From positions 1-44,950 of the forward strand of contig NZ_AOJL01000029.1 of NCBI RefSeq assembly GCF_000337035.1: a stretch of 44,950 bases of DNA, given 5' to 3'. Positions 1,921-16,141 of the stretch are shown piece by piece. How positions within the stretch are numbered: position 1 is the first letter of the stretch; each line of letters starts with the position of its first letter. The notes under the pieces are model-generated. The model saw nothing but the letters and a program-made list of their open reading frames with translations, searched no databases and was not told where the DNA came from. The translations under genes and the position numbers were made by a program. Origin of the DNA: Halorubrum coriense DSM 10284 (GTDB taxonomy: Archaea; Halobacteriota; Halobacteria; Halobacteriales; Haloferacaceae).

Positions 1921-2673
1921 ATGGACCTCGTCGGCGATCTCCTCGCGCGCGACCGACGCACCCGCGACCTGGCGCTCGTGACGCCGGACGGTCGGGAGCG
2001 GACATACCACGACCTGATCACGAACGGCTACAAGGCGGCGAACGTGCTCCGGTACCTCGGCGTCCGGACGGGCGCGACCGTCGCCGTCGAGCCGACGCCG
2101 GGGTTTCACACGACCCTCGCGTTCCTCGGCGCCGCCGCCGTCGGCGCGCCCGTTCGGTTCGACCCGGCGGCGGGGATCGACGCCGGCGACCGCGTCGTCC
2201 TCGCTCCGGTCGCGACCGCCGCGGCGTTCGACCCGACGCCCGGCACGAACCTCGCCGCGTTCGGCGGACCGCCGGACCGCCCCGAAACCACGCACTGGGA
2301 GCAGGAGCTGTGGAGCGAGAACCCGGGTATGCCGCCCAGTGACGTCGCCCCGGACGATCCCGTCGCCCGGGAAGCTGACGGGGACGTCAGTCACCGCGAA
2401 CTGTGTTCGCTCGCCGCGGCCGCGGTCGAGGCCGCCGACATCGACGAGGAGACGCGAGTGGTTCTCAGAGGGCCCTTCTCCGACCACCCGGCGCTCGCCG
2501 CCGGGCTCGTCGCCCCGCTCTCCGTCGGCGGGACAGCGGTGCTTGCGACGGCGAACGACGGAGAAGCGGCGGGCGACGACTCCCGGGGCAACGTGGCGAT
2601 CGCCCCGGCGGCCGCGAGCGTGCCGGAGCCGCGGCGGCTCGATCCGGCGTCGATCGCGCCGACGGCCGAGTGA
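1921..2673 (+). CDS. Reduced AMP-ligase-like (acyl-CoA synthetase-like) protein
   Basis: A 250-residue protein whose first 90 residues resemble the N-terminal part of acyl-CoA/acetyl-CoA synthetases: a TPDGRERTYHDL stretch, a helix equivalent to the one before A1 (AANVLRYLGVRTGATVAV), and FLGAAAVGAPVRFDP. Around residues 160-215 it again resembles the region after the nucleotide loop (VSHREL, then RVVLRGPFSDHPALAAGLVAPLSVGGTAVL). The Ser/Thr/Gly-rich ATP loop that should lie between these parts is absent, and the adenylate and lysine motifs of the C-terminal half are missing. Full enzymes have about 550 residues. It is therefore probably not an active ligase; it may have a regulatory or binding role, or be a decayed copy. 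Start chosen from the TATA spacing. Confidence 0.6.
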   Translation: MDLVGDLLARDRRTRDLALVTPDGRERTYHDLITNGYKAANVLRYLGVRTGATVAVEPTPGFHTTLAFLGAAAVGAPVRFDPAAGIDAGDRVVLAPVATAAAFDPTPGTNLAAFGGPPDRPETTHWEQELWSENPGMPPSDVAPDDPVAREADGDVSHRELCSLAAAAVEAADIDEETRVVLRGPFSDHPALAAGLVAPLSVGGTAVLATANDGEAAGDDSRGNVAIAPAAASVPEPRRLDPASIAPTAE

Positions 2674-2700
2674 ACGGCCCCGGTTCCGGCCGGGACCGAG

Positions 2701-4035
2701 TCAGTCGTCCGCGGGGCTCGGCTCGGCGGCCGCCCGTCCCTCGTGCCGGAGACAGGCGGATTCGTGATCGGGGGCGTGGACCGTCCGATCGGGCTGGCGC
2801 TGGGCGCACGGCGTCGTGATCGCGTCCGACAGGACGGTTCCGGCACGCTCCGACTCGCCTTCGATCAGGAGGTCGAGCGCCTCCGAGAGCGTCCGTTCGA
2901 GGTCCGGATCGTCGACCGTCTCGCTGATGTCGAACTCACGGCGGATCTCGGCTCGGACCTCCGACTCCGTCGGGTCGGTTCCGCCGGCGGCGACGTTCTC
3001 TCGAACCTGTTCGACGTCGACCTCCCCGGCATTGACGTTGTCGCGGAAGTTCAACAGTCCCCGCCAGTCGTCCTGATCGACCTCGACGCCCTCCGGCTGG
3101 ATCACCTTGTGACACCGCGTGTGGAACCGGCAGCCGCTCGGCGGGTTCGTCGGGCTGGGGACGGTCCCCTTCAGTTCGATGCCGCCGACGCTCGCGCGCG
3201 GGTCCGGCGTCGGAATCGACGACAACAGCGCCTCGGTGTACGGGTGTTGCGGGTCGGTGAATATCTCCTCGACCGGACCGATCTCGACGATCTCGCCGAG
3301 GTACATCACGGCCACGCGGTCGCATATCTGGCGGATGACGGACATGTCGTGGCTGATGAACAGCAGTGACAGCCCGAACTCCTCTTGGAAGTCGTCGATC
3401 AGCGAGAGGATCTCCGCCTGAATGGAGACGTCGAGGGCGCTCACCGGCTCGTCGGCGATGATCAGGTCCGGGTTCAACACGAGCGCCCGGGCGAGCGCGA
3501 TCCGCTGTTTCTGGCCGCCGGAGAACTCGTGCGGGTAGCGGTCGAAGTCGTTCGCCGAGAGCCCGACGCGTTCGAGCAGGTCCTCGACGATGGCGCGACG
3601 CCGGTGGCGGTCGCTCATCCCGTGGACTTTGAGGAGTTCGCCGACCGCGTTCCCCACCGACATCCGCGGGTCGAAGCTCGAAGACGGGTCCTGAAAGATC
3701 ATCTGTGCGCCCCGACGGAACTCCATCAGCTCGTCGTCGTCGAACGCCGTCACGTCGTTGGGGTGGGTTCCGTCGGGATCGCGGGTCGCACCTTCGCGAC
3801 CGTTCCCGTTGAAGATGACCTCTCCCGAGGTCGGCTCTTCTAGGTGGATGACGGAACTCGCCGCGGTCGACTTCCCGCAACCGGACTCGCCGACGAGTCC
3901 GAGCGTCTCCCCCGGCGCGATATCGAAGCTGATCCCGTCTACGGCGCGGGCGGCCCCGACCTGTCGGTTGAAGATCCCCTTCCGGATCGGGTAGTGCTTC
4001 TTCAGGTCGCGGACGGAGAGCAGCGGTTCAGTCAT
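2701..4035 (-). CDS. dppF: Peptide ABC transporter ATPase, DppF/OppF type (operon 1)
   Basis: One of the two cytoplasmic ATPases of peptide transporter operon 1 (444 aa). It has Walker A ([12 protein letters not shown]), the signature FSGGQKQR and Walker B ([12 protein letters not shown]). The C-terminal oligo_HPY region starts normally (GCRFHTRC), but about 100 residues of acidic helical sequence separate this Cys pair from the later Cys residues (TPC and ACLR); in ordinary DppD/OppF proteins that spacing is a handful of residues. The start at 4035 (MTEPLLS) overlaps the dppD stop by eight bases (ATGACTGA), indicating translational coupling; the longer frame upstream is rejected. It is the last gene of the operon SBP-dppB-dppC-dppD-dppF. 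Confidence 0.9.
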   Translation of the reverse strand: MTEPLLSVRDLKKHYPIRKGIFNRQVGAARAVDGISFDIAPGETLGLVGESGCGKSTAASSVIHLEEPTSGEVIFNGNGREGATRDPDGTHPNDVTAFDDDELMEFRRGAQMIFQDPSSSFDPRMSVGNAVGELLKVHGMSDRHRRRAIVEDLLERVGLSANDFDRYPHEFSGGQKQRIALARALVLNPDLIIADEPVSALDVSIQAEILSLIDDFQEEFGLSLLFISHDMSVIRQICDRVAVMYLGEIVEIGPVEEIFTDPQHPYTEALLSSIPTPDPRASVGGIELKGTVPSPTNPPSGCRFHTRCHKVIQPEGVEVDQDDWRGLLNFRDNVNAGEVDVEQVRENVAAGGTDPTESEVRAEIRREFDISETVDDPDLERTLSEALDLLIEGESERAGTVLSDAITTPCAQRQPDRTVHAPDHESACLRHEGRAAAEPSPADD

Positions 4036-5092
4036 CGGCGGGACCCACCTCGCTGTCGCCGCCGACCGACCCGCTCTCGTCGCCCGGTCCGAGCCCCTCG
4101 CTGCGAACGATCGAGGGGTTTCCGCCCGGTCCGTAGTGGACACAGGAGACGTGCTGGTCCAGCGCGACTTCTATCTCCGCCGGTTGCTCGCCGGTTCGGC
4201 ACGCCTCCTCGGCGTACTCGCAGCGGGGGGCGAACCGACAGCCGTCCGGCGGGTCGTGCGGGTCGGGAAGCGTTCCCGGTATCCCGCCGCCCGTGGCCCC
4301 GAACTCCGGGAGACACTCCAACAGCTGCTGGGTGTACGGGTGTCCCGGGTGGTCGAAGATGTCGAGGACGTCGCCCCGCTCCATCACCTTCCCCGCGTAC
4401 ATCACGACGATCCGATCGGCGATCTCCGCGACGACGCCGAGGTCGTGGGTCACGAACAGGATCCCCATGTCGAACTCGTCTTGGAGGTCGTCGAGCAGTC
4501 GGAGGATCTGCGCTTGAACCGTGACGTCCAGCGCGGTCGTCGGCTCGTCGGCGATGAGCAGGTCGGGGTCGCCGACGAGCGCCATCGCGATCATCACGCG
4601 CTGTTTCTGGCCGCCGGAGAACTCGTGCGGGTAGTCGTCGAACCGCGCGCTCGCGTTCGCGATCCCGACGCGGTCCAACAGGTCCACCGCCTTCGCGCGG
4701 GCCTCGTCGTCGGAGACGTCCTGGTGGATCTGGAGCGCCTCGGTGATCTGCCACCCGACGGTGTAGCAGTGGTTCATCGCCTCCTGCGGGTTCTGGAAGA
4801 TGTGCGCGATCTCGTTGCCCCGGACCTGACGGAGCTCCGACTCGGGGAGCGACAGCAGGTCGCGCCCCTTGTAGCGGACGGTGCCCTCGATCTGTCCCGG
4901 CGGCGTCTTGATGATCTTGGTGACCGACTCCGTCGCGACGGTCTTCCCGGACCCCGACTCGCCGACGATACAGACCGTCTCGCCGGTGTCGACGCTGAAG
5001 TCGACCCCGTCGACCGCGGTGAGGGTTCCGTTGTCGGTGCTGAACGTCGTCGTGAGGTCTTCGACCTCGAGTAGTGACTGATCGTCGGCCAT
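4028..5092 (-). CDS. dppD: Peptide ABC transporter ATPase, DppD/OppD type (operon 1)
   Basis: The 354-residue ATPase partner of the adjacent DppF. Visible motifs are Walker A ([11 protein letters not shown]), signature ([15 protein letters not shown]), Walker B ([12 protein letters not shown]) and the switch His (VTHDLG). The C-terminal oligo_HPY part has the compact four-cysteine set ([17 protein letters not shown]) that carries an iron-sulfur cluster in some bacterial homologues. The ATG at 5092-5090 overlaps the dppC stop by one base (TAATG), giving a start [13 protein letters not shown]; a longer upstream extension lacks family similarity. It powers import of peptides or related oligomers through DppB/DppC. 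Confidence 0.92.
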
Positions 5093-6276
5093 TATGCGTT
5101 CTCCGCCTCCGCTTCGGGGTTCAGCGCGTCCAACAGCGCGTCGCCGAGGAAGTTGAACGCGAGGATGGTCAAGAACAGCACGATACCGGGCGCGAGCACG
5201 ATCCACGGGGCGAACGAGAGGTCGCTCCGACCGGCGGAGATGAGCTGCCCCCACGAGGGGACCGCCGAGTCGCCGATCCCGAGGAACGCCAGCTGCGCCT
5301 CGAACAGCAGGAAGCCGGGGATGAGCAGCGTCAGGTTGGTGATGATGCTGCTCGCCGCGTTCGGCACAACGTGTCCCCGGATCACCTGGTAGGTGCTCGC
5401 GCCGCTGATCCGGCTCGCCTTAATGAACTCCTCCTCGGAGATCGACAGTGACTTGCTCCGGACGTACCGGGCCATGCCGCCCCAGGCGAACAGCGAGAAC
5501 ACCACGATGAACATCCCGAGCCCGCCGCCGTAGATGTACAGGATGAGCAGGAACATCAGGAACGTCGGGAACGAGAGGATGATGTCGACGAACCGCATCA
5601 TGACCTCGTCGACCCAGCCGCCGGCGTACGCGCTCAGCGTCCCGAACGTGACCCCGATCACGGCGACGATGGTCGTCGTGATGAAGGCGATCTGCATGCT
5701 GATCGTCATCCCGTAGACGATCATCGTGAACACGTCTTTCCCGCCCTGCGTGGTTCCCAGCGGGTGTTGCCACGTGCCCTGACACTGCCCGCTCACCACC
5801 TCGCCGACGCAGGTCGCCGGCGTCGTGTCGACGACCGAGGTGAACACCGGCGGCTGGTAGGCGATGAGCAGTTCCTGCTGCGGCGGGTCCATGATCAGCG
5901 GCCCGAAGAGCCCGCCGACGAACACGATCGCGAGCCAGCCGAGGCTCACGACCGCCGGACGATTGCGCTTGAACTCTTTCCAGTAGTACCGCGTCATCCG
6001 CGGGTTCTGGTACAGCGGCACGACGAGGTACCAGAACGCGAGCAACAGCGTGAAGATGAAGAAGAAGTCGATCGTCTCTAGACCCCGGTCGAGGCCGATG
6101 AACTCGAAGGTCGGCGTTCGGCGGCCGGTGAACTGCCAGTCGTACACGCCGAGCAACGCGAGCGGGAGCGTTGTCAGCAGCATCCCGAGCGAGTTGATCG
6201 ACAGATCGAACCGTCCCGACCGCGAGAGGTCGTTCCAGTCGACTTGGTCGAACCGTTCGGACTCTTCAGTTGCCAT
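5092..6276 (-). CDS. dppC: Peptide ABC transporter permease, DppC/OppC type, with extra N-terminal membrane segments (operon 1)
   Basis: Membrane subunit of 394 residues, about 90 longer than usual. The canonical part begins near residue 100 (KEFKRNRPAVVSLGWLAIVF) and contains the BPD_transp_1 core with the EAA-type cytoplasmic loop (EEFIKASRISGASTYQVIRGH) that contacts the ATPases. Before it lie two additional hydrophobic segments (about residues 28-46 and 68-90), so roughly eight membrane helices are predicted rather than six. The gene is separated from dppB by 14 bases and overlaps dppD by one base. The ATG at 6276 is followed by a hydrophilic 25-residue stretch consistent with a cytoplasmic N-terminus. 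Confidence 0.9.
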   Translation of the reverse strand: MATEESERFDQVDWNDLSRSGRFDLSINSLGMLLTTLPLALLGVYDWQFTGRRTPTFEFIGLDRGLETIDFFFIFTLLLAFWYLVVPLYQNPRMTRYYWKEFKRNRPAVVSLGWLAIVFVGGLFGPLIMDPPQQELLIAYQPPVFTSVVDTTPATCVGEVVSGQCQGTWQHPLGTTQGGKDVFTMIVYGMTISMQIAFITTTIVAVIGVTFGTLSAYAGGWVDEVMMRFVDIILSFPTFLMFLLILYIYGGGLGMFIVVFSLFAWGGMARYVRSKSLSISEEEFIKASRISGASTYQVIRGHVVPNAASSIITNLTLLIPGFLLFEAQLAFLGIGDSAVPSWGQLISAGRSDLSFAPWIVLAPGIVLFLTILAFNFLGDALLDALNPEAEAENA

Positions 6277-6290
6277 TGGTCTCAGTTGTG

Positions 6291-7265
6291 TTACCTGTCA
6301 TCGTAGCTGATCCGCGGGTCGAGCACGGTGAACACGAGGTCCTCGATGAGGTTTCCGATGACGGCGACGAACGTGAAGAACAGCGTCGTCCCCAACACGA
6401 GGTTCGTGTCCTGTGCGATCAGTGCCTCGTAGGTCAACCGTCCGAGCCCGGGAATCGCGAACACGACCTCAACGAGCAGCGACGCGCCGAGGAACAGCGC
6501 GAGGAGCTGCCCGACGAGCGTCGTCGAGAGCGGGACGAGCGTCGGCCGCATGACGTGGTACGCGTACGCGCGGAGCGGGGAAACTCCCTTGGCCTTCGCG
6601 GTCTTCATGAAGTCGGCGTTCTGGAACTCCGCGGACTCGTTCCGGGAGACGCGCATCACCGCGCCGATCGACCCGGTGACCAACACGAACACCGGGATCG
6701 CCAACTGGATCGCGTTCTCCACGCTGAACACCGGCACGCCCGTGTTGTAGGTGATGGGGATCCACTCTAGCCACACCCCGAAGACCAGCAGCAGGATGAT
6801 CCCGAAGAAGAAGTTCGGGATGGCGTAGCCGAAGAAGGCGAATCCGGTGGCCGCGTGGTCCTTCCAGCTGTACATGTTCGCGGCGGAGTAGACGCCGACG
6901 AGCGGCCCGAGGATGATCGTGAGAATCGTCCAAGGGATCGAGTACTGCGCGGTATAGTACAGCGCCTGCGTGACCGCCTCCATGACTGGTTGGCTCCGGC
7001 TTACGGACCAACCCCAGTCGAGCGTGTACACACTCTGGATAAAATCGAAGTACCGGACGTGAAGCGGCTCGTTGAGGCCGCGCAGCTCGCGCGCGCGCTC
7101 GGCGGCCGCCGCCGGGTCGCCGCCTTGGAGCGCCGCCTGCGTCGCCGCCTGCCGGACGGCCGGGTTCGGGGCGGCCGCGAGCATCAGGAACGTGACCGTG
7201 ACGATGATGAGCGATACGACTCCTGCCCAGAGGACCCGAGCGCTGAGGTACCTTCCAAATCCCAT
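6291..7265 (-). CDS. dppB: Peptide ABC transporter permease, DppB/OppB type (operon 1)
   Basis: A 324-residue inner permease subunit. It begins with the typical first membrane helix (YLSARVLWAGVVSLIIVTVTFLML) and ends with the conserved DPRISY motif of DppB. The cytoplasmic EAA loop reads FMKTAKAKGVSPLRAYAYHVM. It forms the translocation pathway together with DppC. It lies 41 bases downstream of the substrate-binding protein and 14 bases upstream of dppC, all on the minus strand, so it is clearly within the same transcription unit. Length and topology are normal for the family. Confidence 0.92.
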   Translation of the reverse strand: MGFGRYLSARVLWAGVVSLIIVTVTFLMLAAAPNPAVRQAATQAALQGGDPAAAAERARELRGLNEPLHVRYFDFIQSVYTLDWGWSVSRSQPVMEAVTQALYYTAQYSIPWTILTIILGPLVGVYSAANMYSWKDHAATGFAFFGYAIPNFFFGIILLLVFGVWLEWIPITYNTGVPVFSVENAIQLAIPVFVLVTGSIGAVMRVSRNESAEFQNADFMKTAKAKGVSPLRAYAYHVMRPTLVPLSTTLVGQLLALFLGASLLVEVVFAIPGLGRLTYEALIAQDTNLVLGTTLFFTFVAVIGNLIEDLVFTVLDPRISYDDR

Positions 7266-7306: not shown

Positions 7307-9205
7307 TTACTCGTCCGAGACCGGATAGAACTCGGACCAGCGGGGCTGCCATGTGAAGTGCGGCGAGGCGAGTCCGCGATAGACGCCGTCGATCAGGTCC
7401 TGCTTGCTGATCGCCGCCGCCAGCGCTTGCCGGAAGGGAACCAGCTGGAAGAGGTTCCCCGGGCCGGCGTTCCAGCCGTTCGCGCGCTGATTCACAGAGA
7501 GTATCGTGTTGTACGGCGTGGGGACCTGCCGGACCGTGACGTTGTCGTTCTGATTGTACGACTCGTACTGCTCGGGCGGAATCGCCGCCGAGTCAGCCTC
7601 GCCGGTTTCGAGCGCGCCGAGACGCGACGCCTGCTCTTGGACGACGCTGATCGAGGCCTCCTCGAACAGCGGTCCCTCGGAGAACAGGTCGGGACCCTCG
7701 TCGATGTCGCGGAGGTAGTACTCGTCGTTGCGGACGTACTCGGTGCCCGAGCCGCGGTTCCACTCGGTGAGCTCGAACGGCCCGAGGTTGCCCGCGAACT
7801 GGAGTTCGAGCAGCTCCTCGTCCTGCTGGAGCCCCTCGACGTCCTCCTCCTCGACGTACGGCTGGACGAGGTCTTTCGGGATCGGGTACAGGGTCGGGTC
7901 GTATGTCTTGGGCCACAGGATATTCGACGACTCCAGCGTCGCTTGGAACTGGAACTCGCCGGTCTGTTCGACCGTCACGCCGTCCCAGCTGCTCGACGCC
8001 GCGGTGGGCGCCCAGTCAGCCTGGTGGAGTTCCTGAACGAGGTAGATGAAGTCCTCGGCCGTGACCTGTCCGTACGGCTCGCTGAACTGGAGGTTCTCCC
8101 GGATGTCGAACGTCCACACCTCCCCGTCCTCGGTGGACATATCATACAGCAGCGGGAAGTACTCCTGTTCCTCGTCGAAGGTGTACGCCGGATCGAGGGC
8201 GCGCTCTATCGCCTCCCCGGCGCCGTTTTCGGTGTTGAATAGCGGGTTCAGCGTGGTGAACCGCGCCGAGGTGACGGTGTCGTAGGAGCCGCTGACGTTC
8301 GACTCCCCCTCGTACCACGCGGGGAGGTCCCAACCGTTCGAGAAGTTCTCGATCGGCCCCTCGAGGTCGGGGTTGTAGCCGACGATGTCGTCGCTGAACA
8401 GCAGCGTGATGTACGGCTGCTCGTACGCGAGGTTCTCGAAGATCTCGACGAACGCCTCACGGAGTTCGTCGGTACTTGTCGCCTGCCGGGCCTGCGAGAA
8501 CAGCTCCTGCGCGTCGAACTGCGGGTAGTAGCCGACCGGATTGTAGAACGGGTTCGCGCCGTCGAAGAACACCGAGTTTGTGAGCGGGTTGAGCGGGTAG
8601 GTGTTCAGCCCGAACACGATCGACATGTCCCACGACTCGTTGCTCGTGACCGAGCGCGGCCCGGGGTTCTGCGGCGTCGGGTTCTCCCAGGTGACCTCCT
8701 CGCCGTTGACCGTGTCGGTCCCTCCTTCGGGCTCCGGCTGGGTCCAGTACTCGTTGTTGAACCGCGTGCCGTCGATGGCCTCGACGGTGACGCTGATGCC
8801 GAGGTTCTGCCCGAGCTCTTGAGCGATGAAGTCGGCGGTCAGCTGCGAGGTCTCTTGACCTGCGCTGTGATAGATGTTGATCTCGACCTGGTCTCCGTCG
8901 GGGTTGACCATCGTGTCCCCGTCGAAGCTGTAGTCGTATTCGGACTCCTCGAACGCGCGCTCCGCCAAGGTGTGCGCGACATCTCGACCGTAGAGGTCGT
9001 CGACGCCAAACTCCGGGAAGTCGGGCAGCGTGAGGCTCTCCCCGCCGTCGGAGCCGTCGCCACCGTCGGAGCCGTCGCCACCGTCGCCCCCGTTTCCGGA
9101 ACAGCCCGCGAGCGTCACCGCGCCGGCGAGGCCGAGCGCAGAGAGCCACTGCCGCCGGTCGACGTGCCGGGAGTCGTCGCGATCCTCTATGTCTCGACGT
9201 GACAT
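7307..9205 (-). CDS. Peptide-binding lipoprotein, circularly permuted SBP_5-like (operon 1)
   Basis: A 632-residue secreted solute-binding protein. The start at 9205 (MSRRDIED) gives a Tat signal (DRRQWLSALGL) and lipobox LAGC, followed by a Gly/Asp/Ser linker. The domain order is unusual. Residues about 75-300 match what is normally the C-terminal lobe of DppA/OppA proteins: the helix ending ERAFEESEY, then NPDGDQVEI, FIAQELGQNLGISVTV, and the final IVGYNPDLEGP. Residues about 303-632 match the usual N-terminal part: TLNPLF, WTFDIRENLQF, VTAEDFIYLVQ, LGPFELTEWNRG, and finally FRQALAAAISKQDLIDGVYRGL. The protein therefore starts where the family usually approaches its C-terminal third. It should capture substrate outside the cell for DppB/C. 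Function call firm, permutation inferred by eye. Confidence 0.88.
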   Translation of the reverse strand: MSRRDIEDRDDSRHVDRRQWLSALGLAGAVTLAGCSGNGGDGGDGSDGGDGSDGGESLTLPDFPEFGVDDLYGRDVAHTLAERAFEESEYDYSFDGDTMVNPDGDQVEINIYHSAGQETSQLTADFIAQELGQNLGISVTVEAIDGTRFNNEYWTQPEPEGGTDTVNGEEVTWENPTPQNPGPRSVTSNESWDMSIVFGLNTYPLNPLTNSVFFDGANPFYNPVGYYPQFDAQELFSQARQATSTDELREAFVEIFENLAYEQPYITLLFSDDIVGYNPDLEGPIENFSNGWDLPAWYEGESNVSGSYDTVTSARFTTLNPLFNTENGAGEAIERALDPAYTFDEEQEYFPLLYDMSTEDGEVWTFDIRENLQFSEPYGQVTAEDFIYLVQELHQADWAPTAASSSWDGVTVEQTGEFQFQATLESSNILWPKTYDPTLYPIPKDLVQPYVEEEDVEGLQQDEELLELQFAGNLGPFELTEWNRGSGTEYVRNDEYYLRDIDEGPDLFSEGPLFEEASISVVQEQASRLGALETGEADSAAIPPEQYESYNQNDNVTVRQVPTPYNTILSVNQRANGWNAGPGNLFQLVPFRQALAAAISKQDLIDGVYRGLASPHFTWQPRWSEFYPVSDE

Positions 9206-11745: not shown

Positions 11746-12702
11746 ATGAGCCTCCAACGTTTCATCCTGAAACGAACGCTGTCGATAATCCCGATCATGT
11801 TCGGGGTGTCGGTGATCACGTTCGGGATGTTCCACCTCACCCCCGGCGATCCGGTCACCCAACTTGTCGCACTGAACCCCGACGTGAGCGCGGCCGAAGA
11901 GGCCGCGCTCCGCGAGCGCTGGGGACTGTCCGGCCCGGTGTGGGAGCAGTACCTCGACTGGATCTCGAACGTGCTCGTGGGCGACTTCGGGCTGGAGCTC
12001 CAGACGGGCCGTGAAGTGTCCGACATCGTGTGGAGCCGACTCCCGGAGACGATCGCGCTCGGCCTCTTCGGCTGGGCGTTCGCGCTCGTCATCGCCATCC
12101 CGGCGGGTATCTACGCGGCGATCAACAAGGACAATCTCGGGGACACGATCAGCCGCTTCCTCGCGCTGTCCGGGATCTCGATCCCGAACTTCTGGCTCGG
12201 CCTCATGCTGATCCTGATATTCTCGCTGTACCTGGGCCTGTTCCCGGTGCTCGCGCCCTCGAGGCAGTCGCTCCTCTCGCCGGAGATGCTGTGGTATCTG
12301 ATCCTCCCGGGGATCACCATCGGGACCGCGTCCGCTGCGAGCATCATGCGCGTGATGCGGACCTCGATGACGGAGGAACTGAACAAGGAGTACGTCACCG
12401 CCGCCCGCGCGAAGGGGCTTCCCGAGCGGACGGTGATACTCAAACACGTCCTGCGGAACTCCCTGATCTCGGTCGTCACCCTCGCGGCGACGCTCACGGC
12501 GTCCATCGTTGCTGGTTCGGTCGTCGTGGAAGTCGTGTTCAACTGGCCGGGGCTCGGGCGGGAGTTCATCGACGCCATCAACCAACGCGAGATCAACGTC
12601 GTCATGGCGATCACCCTGTTCACCGGGTTCTTCGTCATTCTCGCGAACCTCGTCGCTGACATCGTGTACGCGGCGCTCGATCCGAGGATCCGATATGACT
12701 GA
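11746..12702 (+). CDS. dppB: Peptide ABC transporter permease, DppB/OppB type (operon 2)
   Basis: A 318-residue membrane permease with the canonical start (LKRTLSIIPIMFGVSVITFGMFHLTPGDPV), six predicted helices, the EAA loop (YVTAARAKGLPERTVILKHVLRNS), and the DPRIRYD C-terminus. It follows the substrate-binding protein by 87 bases. Its stop overlaps the next start by eight bases (ATGACTGA), the same junction sequence as between dppD and dppF in operon 1. It forms the translocation channel with DppC. Compared with DppB of operon 1 it lacks the long Ala-rich loop after the first helix. Confidence 0.93.
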   Translation: MSLQRFILKRTLSIIPIMFGVSVITFGMFHLTPGDPVTQLVALNPDVSAAEEAALRERWGLSGPVWEQYLDWISNVLVGDFGLELQTGREVSDIVWSRLPETIALGLFGWAFALVIAIPAGIYAAINKDNLGDTISRFLALSGISIPNFWLGLMLILIFSLYLGLFPVLAPSRQSLLSPEMLWYLILPGITIGTASAASIMRVMRTSMTEELNKEYVTAARAKGLPERTVILKHVLRNSLISVVTLAATLTASIVAGSVVVEVVFNWPGLGREFIDAINQREINVVMAITLFTGFFVILANLVADIVYAALDPRIRYD

Positions 12703-13747
12703 TAGAAACATACACGAGGACCGCGGTCGGATCCAAGTCTCCGGCTTCGATTCGGACCGCGTCCGAGACCGAGAGCCGATATCCGACTGGACCGACGAAT
12801 CGAGCGGCGAAACGGTCGGCCGATGGCGGCGCGGGTTCCGCAAGTTCAAGCGGAACCGGTCCGCGATGGGCGCGCTGGTCGTCGTCGTCGTGATGGCGCT
12901 GGCGTCGTTCTTCGCGCGTCCCGTCGAGATGTTCGGCGTGGTCGTCCAACCGTTCTCGCTGGCCCCGTACGACCCCACGACGATCCTCTACCTCGGGGTC
13001 GACTCGAGCGTGAACGTGTACGACCCGCCGTCGTGGCAGTACCCGATGGGCGTCGACGGCTCCGGTCGCGACCTGTTCTCGCGACTCCTCGTCGGCGGGC
13101 GGTACAGCCTCTCTATCGGCTTCATCGTCGTCGGCCTCACCGCGTCGTTCGGCCTGATCTACGGCTCGATCTCGGGATACTACGGCGGGAACGTCGACGA
13201 GCTGATGATGCGGATCGTCGACACGATCTTCGCGTTCCCCGGACTCATCCTGGCGCTCATCATCGTCGCCATCCTCGGCGGCGGGTACTGGCAGCTCGTC
13301 TTGGCCTTCAGCCTCTTCGGCTGGGCGGGGTACGGCCGCCTCGTGCGCGGAGAGGTACTGAAGATCAAAGAGAACGAGTACGTGCTGGCGGCGAAGGCGC
13401 TCGGCGCGCGCGACCGCTCGGTCGTGTTCAGACACATCGCGCCCAACGCGATGCCGCCGCTCATCGTCCTGGCCTCGCTGAACATCGGCAGCGTCGTCAT
13501 CGGCGTCGCGGCGCTCGGGTTCCTCGGGCTCGGGTTAGATCCCAGTTCGGCCGAGTGGGGAACGATGCTGAACGCCACCCGGTCGACGCTCATTCAAGGA
13601 CCGGGCGGACAGATACCGTGGTGGGCGACCGTCTACCCCGGCGCGGCCATCTTCATCTTCGTGATGTCAATGAACATGATCGGCGACGGTATCAACGACG
13701 CACTGGACGCACAGCAGACGGGTGTCGGTCGCGGGGGTGAGGACTGA
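12695..13747 (+). CDS. dppC: Peptide ABC transporter permease, DppC/OppC type (operon 2)
   Basis: A 350-residue permease subunit. The start at 12695 (MTDRNIHEDRGR) is set by the eight-base overlap with dppB; longer upstream frames run through dppB in another frame and are rejected. A hydrophilic N-terminal tail of about 55 residues precedes the usual GFRKFKRNRSAMGALVVVVV first helix. The periplasm-facing segment has the family motif PMGVDGSGRDLFSRLLVGGRYSL (partly shared across DppC proteins), and the EAA loop reads YVLAAKALGARDRSVVFRH. Unlike the DppC of operon 1 it has no extra N-terminal helices. The stop overlaps the dppD start by one base (TGATG). Confidence 0.93.
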   Translation: MTDRNIHEDRGRIQVSGFDSDRVRDREPISDWTDESSGETVGRWRRGFRKFKRNRSAMGALVVVVVMALASFFARPVEMFGVVVQPFSLAPYDPTTILYLGVDSSVNVYDPPSWQYPMGVDGSGRDLFSRLLVGGRYSLSIGFIVVGLTASFGLIYGSISGYYGGNVDELMMRIVDTIFAFPGLILALIIVAILGGGYWQLVLAFSLFGWAGYGRLVRGEVLKIKENEYVLAAKALGARDRSVVFRHIAPNAMPPLIVLASLNIGSVVIGVAALGFLGLGLDPSSAEWGTMLNATRSTLIQGPGGQIPWWATVYPGAAIFIFVMSMNMIGDGINDALDAQQTGVGRGGED

Positions 13748-14823
13748 TGTCGCTGCTCGAAGTGAAGGACCTCACCGTCCGGTTTTACACCCAGGAGGGC
13801 GTGGTGACCGCCGTCGACGACCTCTCGTACCGCATCGAGCGGGGCGAGAAGTTCGGCGTGGTCGGCGAGAGCGGCGCGGGCAAGAGCGTGACCGCGCTCT
13901 CGGTGTTACGGCTGATCGAGAGCCCCGGCCAGATCGAGAGCGGCGAGATCCTGTTCAAAGGCGAGAACCTGCTGGAGATGTCCGAGTCGGAGATCCGCTC
14001 GATCCGCGGCAACGAGATATCGATGATCTTCCAAGACGCGCAGACGGCGCTCAACCCCGTCTACACCGTCGGCGGGCAGATCGCGGAAGCGATCGAGCAC
14101 CACATGGACTACAGCAGCGAGGAGGCGAAGGCGCGCACCATCCAGCTGCTCGACCGCGTCGGAATCCCGGAGGCCGAAGAGCGGTTCTCCGACTACCCGC
14201 ACGAGTTCTCCGGCGGGATGCAACAGCGGGCGATCATCGCGATGGCCCTGTCGTGCGACCCCGACCTCATCGTCGCGGACGAGCCGACGACCGCGCTCGA
14301 CGTGACGATCGAAGCGCAGATCCTCGACGAGCTCACGGAACTGGCCGACGAGTTCGACACGTCGATCCAGCTCATCACCCACGACCTCGGCGTCATCGCC
14401 GAGATCTGCGACCGCGTGATGGTGATGTACGCCGGCAAACCGGTCGAGAAGGCGCCGGTCGAGGAGCTCTACTACGACCCCAAACACCCGTACACAGTCG
14501 GGCTCATGAGCTCGATCCCCCGCGTGAACGACAAGCGGGAGCGGCTTCAGACGATCCCCGGGGTGATGCCCGACCTCGTCGAACTCCCGTCGGGGTGTAG
14601 CTTCCACCCGCGCTGTCCGTTCGCCGAGGAGAAGTGTACGCGGACGGAGCCGTCGCTCACCGACGTCGAGTCGGGCGAGGAGGCCACGCTCGACACCGAA
14701 CACTCCGCCGCCTGTCTGGAGTACACGGAGGGGCTCTCACAGGGGCTCACGTACTCCGTCGAGACGACCGGCCCGGCGGACGGTGCCGCGGCGCAGTACG
14801 TCGAGGGTGATCGCGATGAGTAG
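13747..14823 (+). CDS. dppD: Peptide ABC transporter ATPase, DppD/OppD type (operon 2)
   Basis: A 358-residue ATPase with Walker A (VVGESGAGKSV), signature (FSGGMQQRAIIAMAL), Walker B ([13 protein letters not shown]) and switch His (ITHDLG). The C-terminal oligo_HPY domain has the compact cysteine set GCSFHPRC, EEKC, AACLEY. It pairs with the following DppF to energise transport through DppB/DppC. It overlaps dppC by one base and dppF by eight (ATGAGTAG), so the five genes form one tightly coupled operon. Length is normal. Confidence 0.93.
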   Translation: MSLLEVKDLTVRFYTQEGVVTAVDDLSYRIERGEKFGVVGESGAGKSVTALSVLRLIESPGQIESGEILFKGENLLEMSESEIRSIRGNEISMIFQDAQTALNPVYTVGGQIAEAIEHHMDYSSEEAKARTIQLLDRVGIPEAEERFSDYPHEFSGGMQQRAIIAMALSCDPDLIVADEPTTALDVTIEAQILDELTELADEFDTSIQLITHDLGVIAEICDRVMVMYAGKPVEKAPVEELYYDPKHPYTVGLMSSIPRVNDKRERLQTIPGVMPDLVELPSGCSFHPRCPFAEEKCTRTEPSLTDVESGEEATLDTEHSAACLEYTEGLSQGLTYSVETTGPADGAAAQYVEGDRDE

Positions 14824-16141
14824 CGCGGAGCCGATCCTCCGCGTCGAGGGGTTAGAGAAGTACTACGACTCGACCGGCGGGTTCATCGACAAGCTCCTCG
14901 GACGGTCGCAGTGGGTGAAGGCGGTCGACGGCGTCGACCTCGAACTCCACGAGGGCGAGACGCTCGGCGTCGTGGGCGAGTCCGGGTGCGGGAAGACCAC
15001 GCTCGGCCGGAGCATGCTCCGGCTGATCGAGCCCACGGGCGGCTCCGTCTACTACAAGGGCGAGGACATCACGGACCTGTCCAGCTCTGACCTCCGGAAC
15101 CTCCGCAAGGACGTCCAGTACATCTTCCAAGACCCGTTCTCCAGTCTGAATCCCCGGCTGACCGTCGGCGACATCATCGGGGAACCGCTCGACATCCACG
15201 ACATCGCGTCCGGCGACGAGCGGCAAGAGCGGATCTACGAGCTGCTCGAGACCGTCGGGCTGAACCCGAGCCACGCGAACCGCTATCCGCACGAGTTCTC
15301 CGGCGGCCAGCGGCAGCGGATCGGCATCGCCCGCGCGCTCGCCGTCGACCCCGAGGTGATCGTCTGTGACGAGCCGGTGTCGGCGCTCGACGTGAGCGTC
15401 CAGGCGCAGATCCTCAACCTCATGGAGAACCTCCAGGAGGAGTTCGGGCTCTCGTACGTGTTCATCGCCCACGACCTCAGCGTCGTGGAGCACATCTCCG
15501 ACCGGATCGCGGTCATGTACCTCGGCGAGGTGGCGGAGATCGCCCCGACGGAGGAGGTGTTCCAGCCGCCGTACCACCCGTACTCGGAGGCGCTCCTCTC
15601 CGCGATCCCGGAGCCGGACCCGCTCTGGGAGGGCGAGCAGATATTCCTGTCCGGGACCGTCCCGTCCCCGCTGAACCCGCCGTCCGGCTGTCGGTTCCAC
15701 ACCCGGTGTCCGAAGGTGATCCGCGACGGCGACTACGACCTCCCGCAGGAGACGTGGCGGTCGGTCATGGACCTGAAGCTCCGGACGCGGGAGTCGGACT
15801 CGGTCGGCTCGGTGACGGCGGAGATCGAGAGCGAGGAGGGGTCGCGGCTCGACCCGACGGACGCGTCGCGCGAGGAGTTCGGCCGGATGGTCCGGACCGA
15901 GTTCGACCTCCCGGAGAGCCTGTCGGACGGCGACGCGGAGGCCGCGGTGTCGGAGGCGATCGACCTGCTCCGCGACGAGGACCTCTCCGCGGCGGCGACG
16001 ACGCTGGACGACGCGTTCACCTCGCCGTGTTCGACGCACGAGCCGGCCGCCTACGAGGCGGGCGAGGACCACCACATCTCCTGTCTCCGGTTCGACGACC
16101 GGTTCGACTCCGAGCGGGAGCTGTTCGGCAACGCGGCGTAA
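14816..16141 (+). CDS. dppF: Peptide ABC transporter ATPase, DppF/OppF type (operon 2)
   Basis: A 441-residue ATPase starting at MSSAEPIL (14816); an 11-codon upstream extension is rejected because of the dppD overlap. Motifs: Walker A ([11 protein letters not shown]), signature ([15 protein letters not shown]), Walker B ([13 protein letters not shown]). As in operon 1, the C-terminal cysteine set is split: GCRFHTRC is followed by about 105 acidic, helix-rich residues before SPC and SCLRF. The shared insertion in both DppF paralogues, absent from both DppD paralogues, shows it is an old feature of this subunit type and not a local accident. Last gene of operon 2. Confidence 0.92.

Follow-up and report, generated by a model that had tools for sequence, protein, structure and literature searches.

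Receptors of the SBP_bac_5 type (SBP_5; cluster C), described members of which are DppA, OppA, AppA and NikA, are the closest known counterparts of P0001, the Halorubrum coriense protein analysed here. Both lobes of P0001 are homologous to theirs, the operon partners and the predicted fold are the same, and the lipoprotein signal is like that of the other SBP_5 proteins of the genome. P0001 differs from these receptors in that the two parts of its mature chain stand in rotated order, which would place the termini and the lipid anchor within the C-terminal lobe; the solved SBP_5 structures retrieved by sequence matching have the normal order. Among substrate-binding proteins (SBPs) in general, one natural permutation was found in open-access full text, namely MglB-2 (Tp0684) of T. 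pallidum, a cluster B glucose receptor for which the designation 'type Ic / cluster Bc' was proposed (PMC4990184). Its authors suggested that the permutation is an adaptation to membrane anchoring, and they leave possible that the permuted part originated from another gene (PMC4990184). MglB-2 resembles P0001 as a naturally permuted, lipid-anchored SBP of an ABC importer, and it has kept ligand binding; it is unlike P0001 with respect to SBP cluster, ligand and breakpoint, and we found no description of normal alleles at the same locus (PMC4990184). Neither its Pfam match nor its significant PDB sequence matches relate P0001 to the MglB-like sugar receptors of cluster B. The pairs saposin/swaposin and concanavalin A/favin and the transhydrogenases follow the same principle of permutation as P0001, concanavalin A being permuted after translation, unlike P0001 (PMC3320104). 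What sets P0001 apart from such classical cases is that the order differs between congeneric species at a single locus and that the change recurs in the family. A report of permuted SBP_5 proteins was not found in open-access full text, in agreement with an earlier note on this DNA whose author knew of no such description.

The P0001 gene (632 codons) lies on the minus strand at positions 7307–9205 of the window, i.e., the complete stretch of 44,950 nucleotides that was analysed, and heads an Opp-type operon. The earlier note had located it correctly but missed the strand, a permuted neighbour (P0002) and the wide recurrence of permutation. The protein starts with a Tat signal peptide, RRQWLSALGLAGAVTLAGC, ending in an LAGC lipobox with Cys35 (9101–9205), and the twin-arginine motif and lipobox, both read from the sequence, predict export and N-terminal anchoring in the membrane. 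A linker rich in Gly, Asp and Ser follows (GGDGGDGSDGGDGSDGG; 9035–9100), inside which DNA homology to canonical positional orthologs stops. By ortholog alignment, residues 58–303 (8297–9034) correspond to the C-terminal third of the SBP_5 domain, which opens at a loop and the helix PDFPEFGVDDLYGRDVAHTLAERAFEES. The N-terminal two thirds, delimited by Pfam and ortholog alignment, are placed last (residues 304–632; 7310–8296) and end with ...WQPRWSEFYPVSDE. In the new junction between these blocks (8288–8317) the old C terminus, ...ENFSNGWDLPAW, runs into the old N terminus, VSGSYDTVTS..., and the junction alignment revealed no remnant of a signal peptide there. On the same strand, Pfam signatures identified an OppB/DppB-type permease (BPD_transp_1; 6291–7265), an OppC/DppC-type permease (BPD_transp_1, OppC_N; 5092–6276) and ATPases of the OppD type (ABC_tran, oligo_HPY; 4028–5095) and OppF type (ABC_tran, oligo_HPY; 2701–4035). 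The operon of P0001 thus contains the full set of Opp/Dpp-type partners, a pair of permeases and a pair of ATPases; the BPD_transp_1_N signature also occurs among the permeases.

Several independent comparisons bear on the order of the P0001 domain. Its sole Pfam match is SBP_bac_5 (PF00496), with 144.5 bits at a gathering cut-off of 32.4, and significant PDB sequence matches are SBP_5 proteins. The profile aligns in two stretches in reversed order, the best one covering residues 358–623 (profile positions 13–250), and in a genome-level search profile piece 266–349 lay upstream of piece 13–255 within the one P0001 ORF. When the mature part was rotated back in silico, a single collinear match resulted (13–349 of 368) and the score rose from 144.5 to 150.3 bits. 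Residues 316–613 of P0001 align with positions 32–305 of Bacillus subtilis AppA (1xoc; independent E value 0.003) and residues 222–283 with positions 441–501, again in reversed order, the latter match being too weak when taken alone. Comparison with a normal-order ortholog yielded E values of 6e-114 for the C block and 4e-150 for the N block, which excludes chance as the source of the swapped order. The whole domain is present once, as two swapped blocks; in the canonical protein L058, residues 91–411 correspond to the later and residues 415–669 to the earlier part of P0001. The breakpoint could be placed exactly: canonical ..WQPRFSNFYPPEE|DIPQFGVGDSYGSEVARGLAEDAFE.. faces the permuted start ..PDFPEFGVDDLYG.. 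and the permuted end ..WQPRWSEFYPGDE. In permuted orthologs the old ends are fused as ..ENFSNGWDLPAWYEGEPxVSGSYDTVTS.., with zero residues lost according to the junction alignment. These alignments support the view that the mature SBP_5 domain of P0001 is truly circularly permuted, behind a signal peptide kept in place. The earlier note had arrived at the same view, and the profile search it had proposed indeed returned two partial stretches in reversed order that become collinear only after rotation, rather than a single collinear match. All motifs quoted in it occur in P0001 in the order given there, and the usual N-terminal part, which it let begin at about residue 303, begins at about residue 304.

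AlphaFold2 modelling with an alignment of 81 rows, in which the lobes of canonical relatives were entered as separate rows and fragment placement was checked, returned a confident SBP_5 fold for P0001 (pLDDT 87.1; pTM 0.85); a model from the single sequence (pLDDT 35) was discarded. In a Foldseek comparison the best 50 PDB fold matches of the model were all SBP_5-type binding proteins. Approximately 250–290 columns could be aligned sequentially, which is about half of the target length (best match AppA: 259 columns, 2.8 Å, TM score by target 0.41). Such a half-length sequential alignment is consistent with a permuted chain and departs from the normal lobe order that the earlier note had named as evidence to the contrary. 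The two-lobed SBP_5 fold of P0001 is thus predicted to be preserved, and ligand binding and permease docking should be normal on that account. Purifying selection is about equal in the two forms (median dN/dS 0.17–0.19 in the permuted and 0.15–0.17 in the canonical group). By its relatives and operon, P0001 would serve as the receptor of an oligopeptide/dipeptide-type ABC importer. A permuted SBP_5 operon on plasmid pNMAG02 of Natrialba magadii (L034; 5800–7491, plus strand) is located between genes for M28 metallopeptidases, which indicates uptake of peptides in that case.

A divergent Opp-type operon adjacent to that of P0001 is headed by the gene for P0002 (9676–11658, plus strand; 660 amino acids), a second permuted SBP_5 lipoprotein identified by its Pfam, PDB and ortholog matches. 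Its C part (residues 57–246) precedes the N part (247–660), its matches to AppA and 3m8u are in reversed order, and its Pfam score is 219.1 bits when rotated versus 208.6 bits in the native order. Relatives of P0002 in normal order exist in Halocatena salina (L033) and in genome G070 (L205). P0002 was permuted by a separate event with the breakpoint after the hinge helix. Pfam signatures on the plus strand assign to this operon permeases of the OppB type (11746–12702) and OppC type (12695–13747) and ATPases of the OppD type (13747–14823) and OppF type (14816–16141). Three of the eight SBP_5 genes of the H. coriense genome are permuted. The third one (L007; contig C5, 54360–56126) is directly followed by a gene for a PAP2-type phosphatase, and the same pairing is annotated in Natronorubrum bangense (H99).

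Both orders of P0001 are found within the genus Halorubrum. A permuted ortholog is present in 19 of 52 genomes (68–93% identity) and a normal-order ortholog in about 14 of the 52 (64–69% identity), with further normal-order orthologs in Halolamina, Natronomonas, Halocatena, Haloarcula and others. A first ortholog alignment (A1) seemed broken because four of the orthologs were in normal order. In four genomes (G023, G051, G055 and G049) the canonical ortholog adjoins the same divergent, permuted P0002 operon. At the DNA level the flanks of these four loci are 82–91% identical to the window and the gene body 72–75%, with two blocks swapped; homology spans the signal peptide and lipobox, stops in the linker DNA and restarts at the start of the permease gene. 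The signal peptide is retained with 82–89% identity in the closest canonical orthologs, including those at the four shared loci. Flank and mature-protein identities are decoupled: in G049 (canonical) the transporter genes are 87–91%, the signal peptide 82% and the lobes 66–69% identical to the window, and in G005 (permuted) the corresponding values are 76–84% for the transporter genes and 84–87% for the lobes. The simplest reading of these patterns is that recombination exchanges the mature domain as a cassette bounded by the linker and the stop codon.

Permutation of SBP_5 proteins extends well beyond Halorubrum. All 32 Halobacteria ORFs chosen for a partial Pfam match proved to be permuted. 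In 25 haloarchaeal genomes 41 SBP_5 genes with a partial match of the permuted type and 71 normal ones were counted by hand from the Pfam match pattern, part of the sequences being read, and about one third of haloarchaeal SBP_5 genes thus appear to be permuted. An N-lobe tree of 143 rows implied at least eight order switches, six of them forced by strongly supported branches, and a 106-row tree with more members implied ten, of which seven were forced. The number of events is approximate because both trees rest on a short search with the N lobe only, and the 106-row tree was built without L015, L027 and L212, which are in normal order and very divergent. Some of the switches could be reversals. 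In a carefully built tree for the subfamily of P0001, permuted proteins form separate groups in Halorubrum, in Halegenticoccus and in a Natrialba-related group. These sequence trees and the breakpoints show several independent permutations of a comparable kind among the SBP_5 proteins of haloarchaea.

The position of the breakpoint varies between groups. It precedes the helix next to the hinge segment (the hinge helix) in P0001, L179/L211 and L224–226, and it follows the hinge helix in P0002, L146–L149 and L163/L164. In L203 it is far downstream, and the last 79 residues alone are shifted to the front; this protein (1948–3888, plus strand), together with L223, represents a further breakpoint class, in which the two ends may overlap over a short stretch. 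The permuted proteins L224, L225 and L226 belong to the subfamily of L003 and L005, two normal-order proteins of H. coriense itself, and their permutation is apparently another independent event. In the 106-row tree, 35 rows including L007 of H. coriense form one permuted clade that spans many haloarchaeal families and comprises alphaproteobacterial proteins from Nitratireductor, Ketogulonicigenium and Maritalea, so that permuted SBP_5 proteins exist also in Bacteria. These bacterial members were located via plasmid records. For one member of the clade, the 60 PDB matches listed out of 83 were all in normal order. The alphaproteobacterial permuted proteins L214, L215 and L216 carry non-lipoprotein signal peptides and are annotated merely as substrate-binding proteins. 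An archaeal SBP_5-like protein of 789 amino acids with a C-terminal membrane anchor (L218; 3296–5662, plus strand) matches the profile weakly in two places (16 and 11 bits) that stand in swapped order, possibly reflecting another permutation. L217 of another archaeon, suspected on the basis of a partial match, turned out to be a normal-order protein with insertions.

We consider it very probable that P0001 is a permuted, lipid-anchored Opp/Dpp-type receptor which originated from the normal form, is exchanged as a cassette and stands for recurrent events. The permuted form would have been derived from the normal form within its gene family. The chain would have been opened at a surface loop in the C-terminal lobe, where ..WQPRFSNFYPPEE is followed by DIPQFGVGD.. 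in the canonical protein, and a short linker would connect the old termini. As a consequence, the lipid anchor would now run into the C-lobe helix and no longer into the strand with which the N lobe begins. The route was probably tandem duplication, fusion and trimming; permutation by duplication is one of the leading models, and under it fused tandem intermediates are expected (PMC3320104). A scripted scan for repeated lobes in a set of collected ORFs disclosed no duplication intermediate specific to P0001. In the haloarchaeon G010, however, an ORF of another subfamily (L221; 3114–7859, minus strand) encodes two complete SBP_5 domains that share a single signal peptide. Intermediates of this type therefore exist, which does not imply that P0001 passed through one. 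In Halorubrum, the permuted form would persist as an alternative mature-domain cassette, with recombination swapping the stretch from the signal-peptide linker to the stop codon.

Alternative explanations were weighed against this scenario. The window stems from a draft assembly of 69 contigs, and P0001 might result from an assembly error, from frameshift or decay of a gene, or from a reading of two partial genes as a single one. Identical junctions on different contigs in 19 independent Halorubrum assemblies, single open frames, the low dN/dS of 0.17–0.19, the intact operon and the confidently predicted fold make the probability of such an artefact negligible. An order of C before N could in principle also arise by fusion of two genes, with the N lobe of one SBP placed behind the C lobe of an unrelated one. 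We consider this extremely unlikely: a chimeric origin of P0001 and P0002 is refuted by the two lobes, which resemble one and the same set of canonical orthologs to an equal degree (P0001, N 65–69% and C 63–69%; P0002, 64.6% and 62.1% to L205), and the junctions contain every residue once.

A single ancient permutation that was inherited or spread horizontally, with nested canonical orthologs being reversals or mis-placed, would be in line with the large clade of 35 rows that includes Alphaproteobacteria and with the gathering of breakpoints around one loop-helix-loop region. Yet one permuted clade is rejected in the P0001 subfamily (ΔlnL 288; p-AU 1.6e-8) and has a p-AU of 0.013 in the P0002 subfamily, the breakpoints lie before the helix, after it or far downstream depending on the group, and canonical orthologs are 49–69% similar as compared with about 20% for other permuted families. 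A single origin is therefore very unlikely. Finally, a permuted receptor might bind its ligand while being uncoupled from the importer, and act as a sensor or scavenger. The PAP2-type phosphatase gene next to L007, in the place of a permease gene, points in this direction and implies that some permuted SBPs have no visible tie to an importer. By contrast, the genes for P0001 and P0002 are both the first of a complete Opp-type operon, an arrangement that is retained around their orthologs in other genera, and for them this role is decidedly unlikely.

With independent, recurrent permutation of an importer receptor as the preferred reading, we lean towards the wider proposal that circular permutation has a natural hot-spot in SBP_5 proteins, above all in those of haloarchaea. 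It would involve at least seven events, at least three breakpoint positions, permutation of about one third of the proteins and exchange of cassettes via the repetitive Gly/Asp linker. The re-sited membrane tether may be what selection favours, but the permuted alphaproteobacterial members are without an evident lipobox and, hence, anchoring alone is not the whole explanation.

Permuted SBP_5 proteins are scored as truncated matches in profile searches, and where their annotations were read they are simply called 'ABC transporter substrate-binding protein'. The cut sites tolerated in this family represent natural guides to biosensor design. P0001 itself, an importer receptor that is ordinary in other respects, carries a real, conserved and exactly resolved permutation and is one case of a recurrent phenomenon. 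Natural circular permutations are mostly known as lone protein pairs. Here, the event is recent enough for both orders to exist at one locus within a genus, with readable breakpoints, and it is repeated in the family. The origin of permutations, the range of cuts that a fold tolerates and whether permutations are selected thereby become directly testable in culturable archaea.
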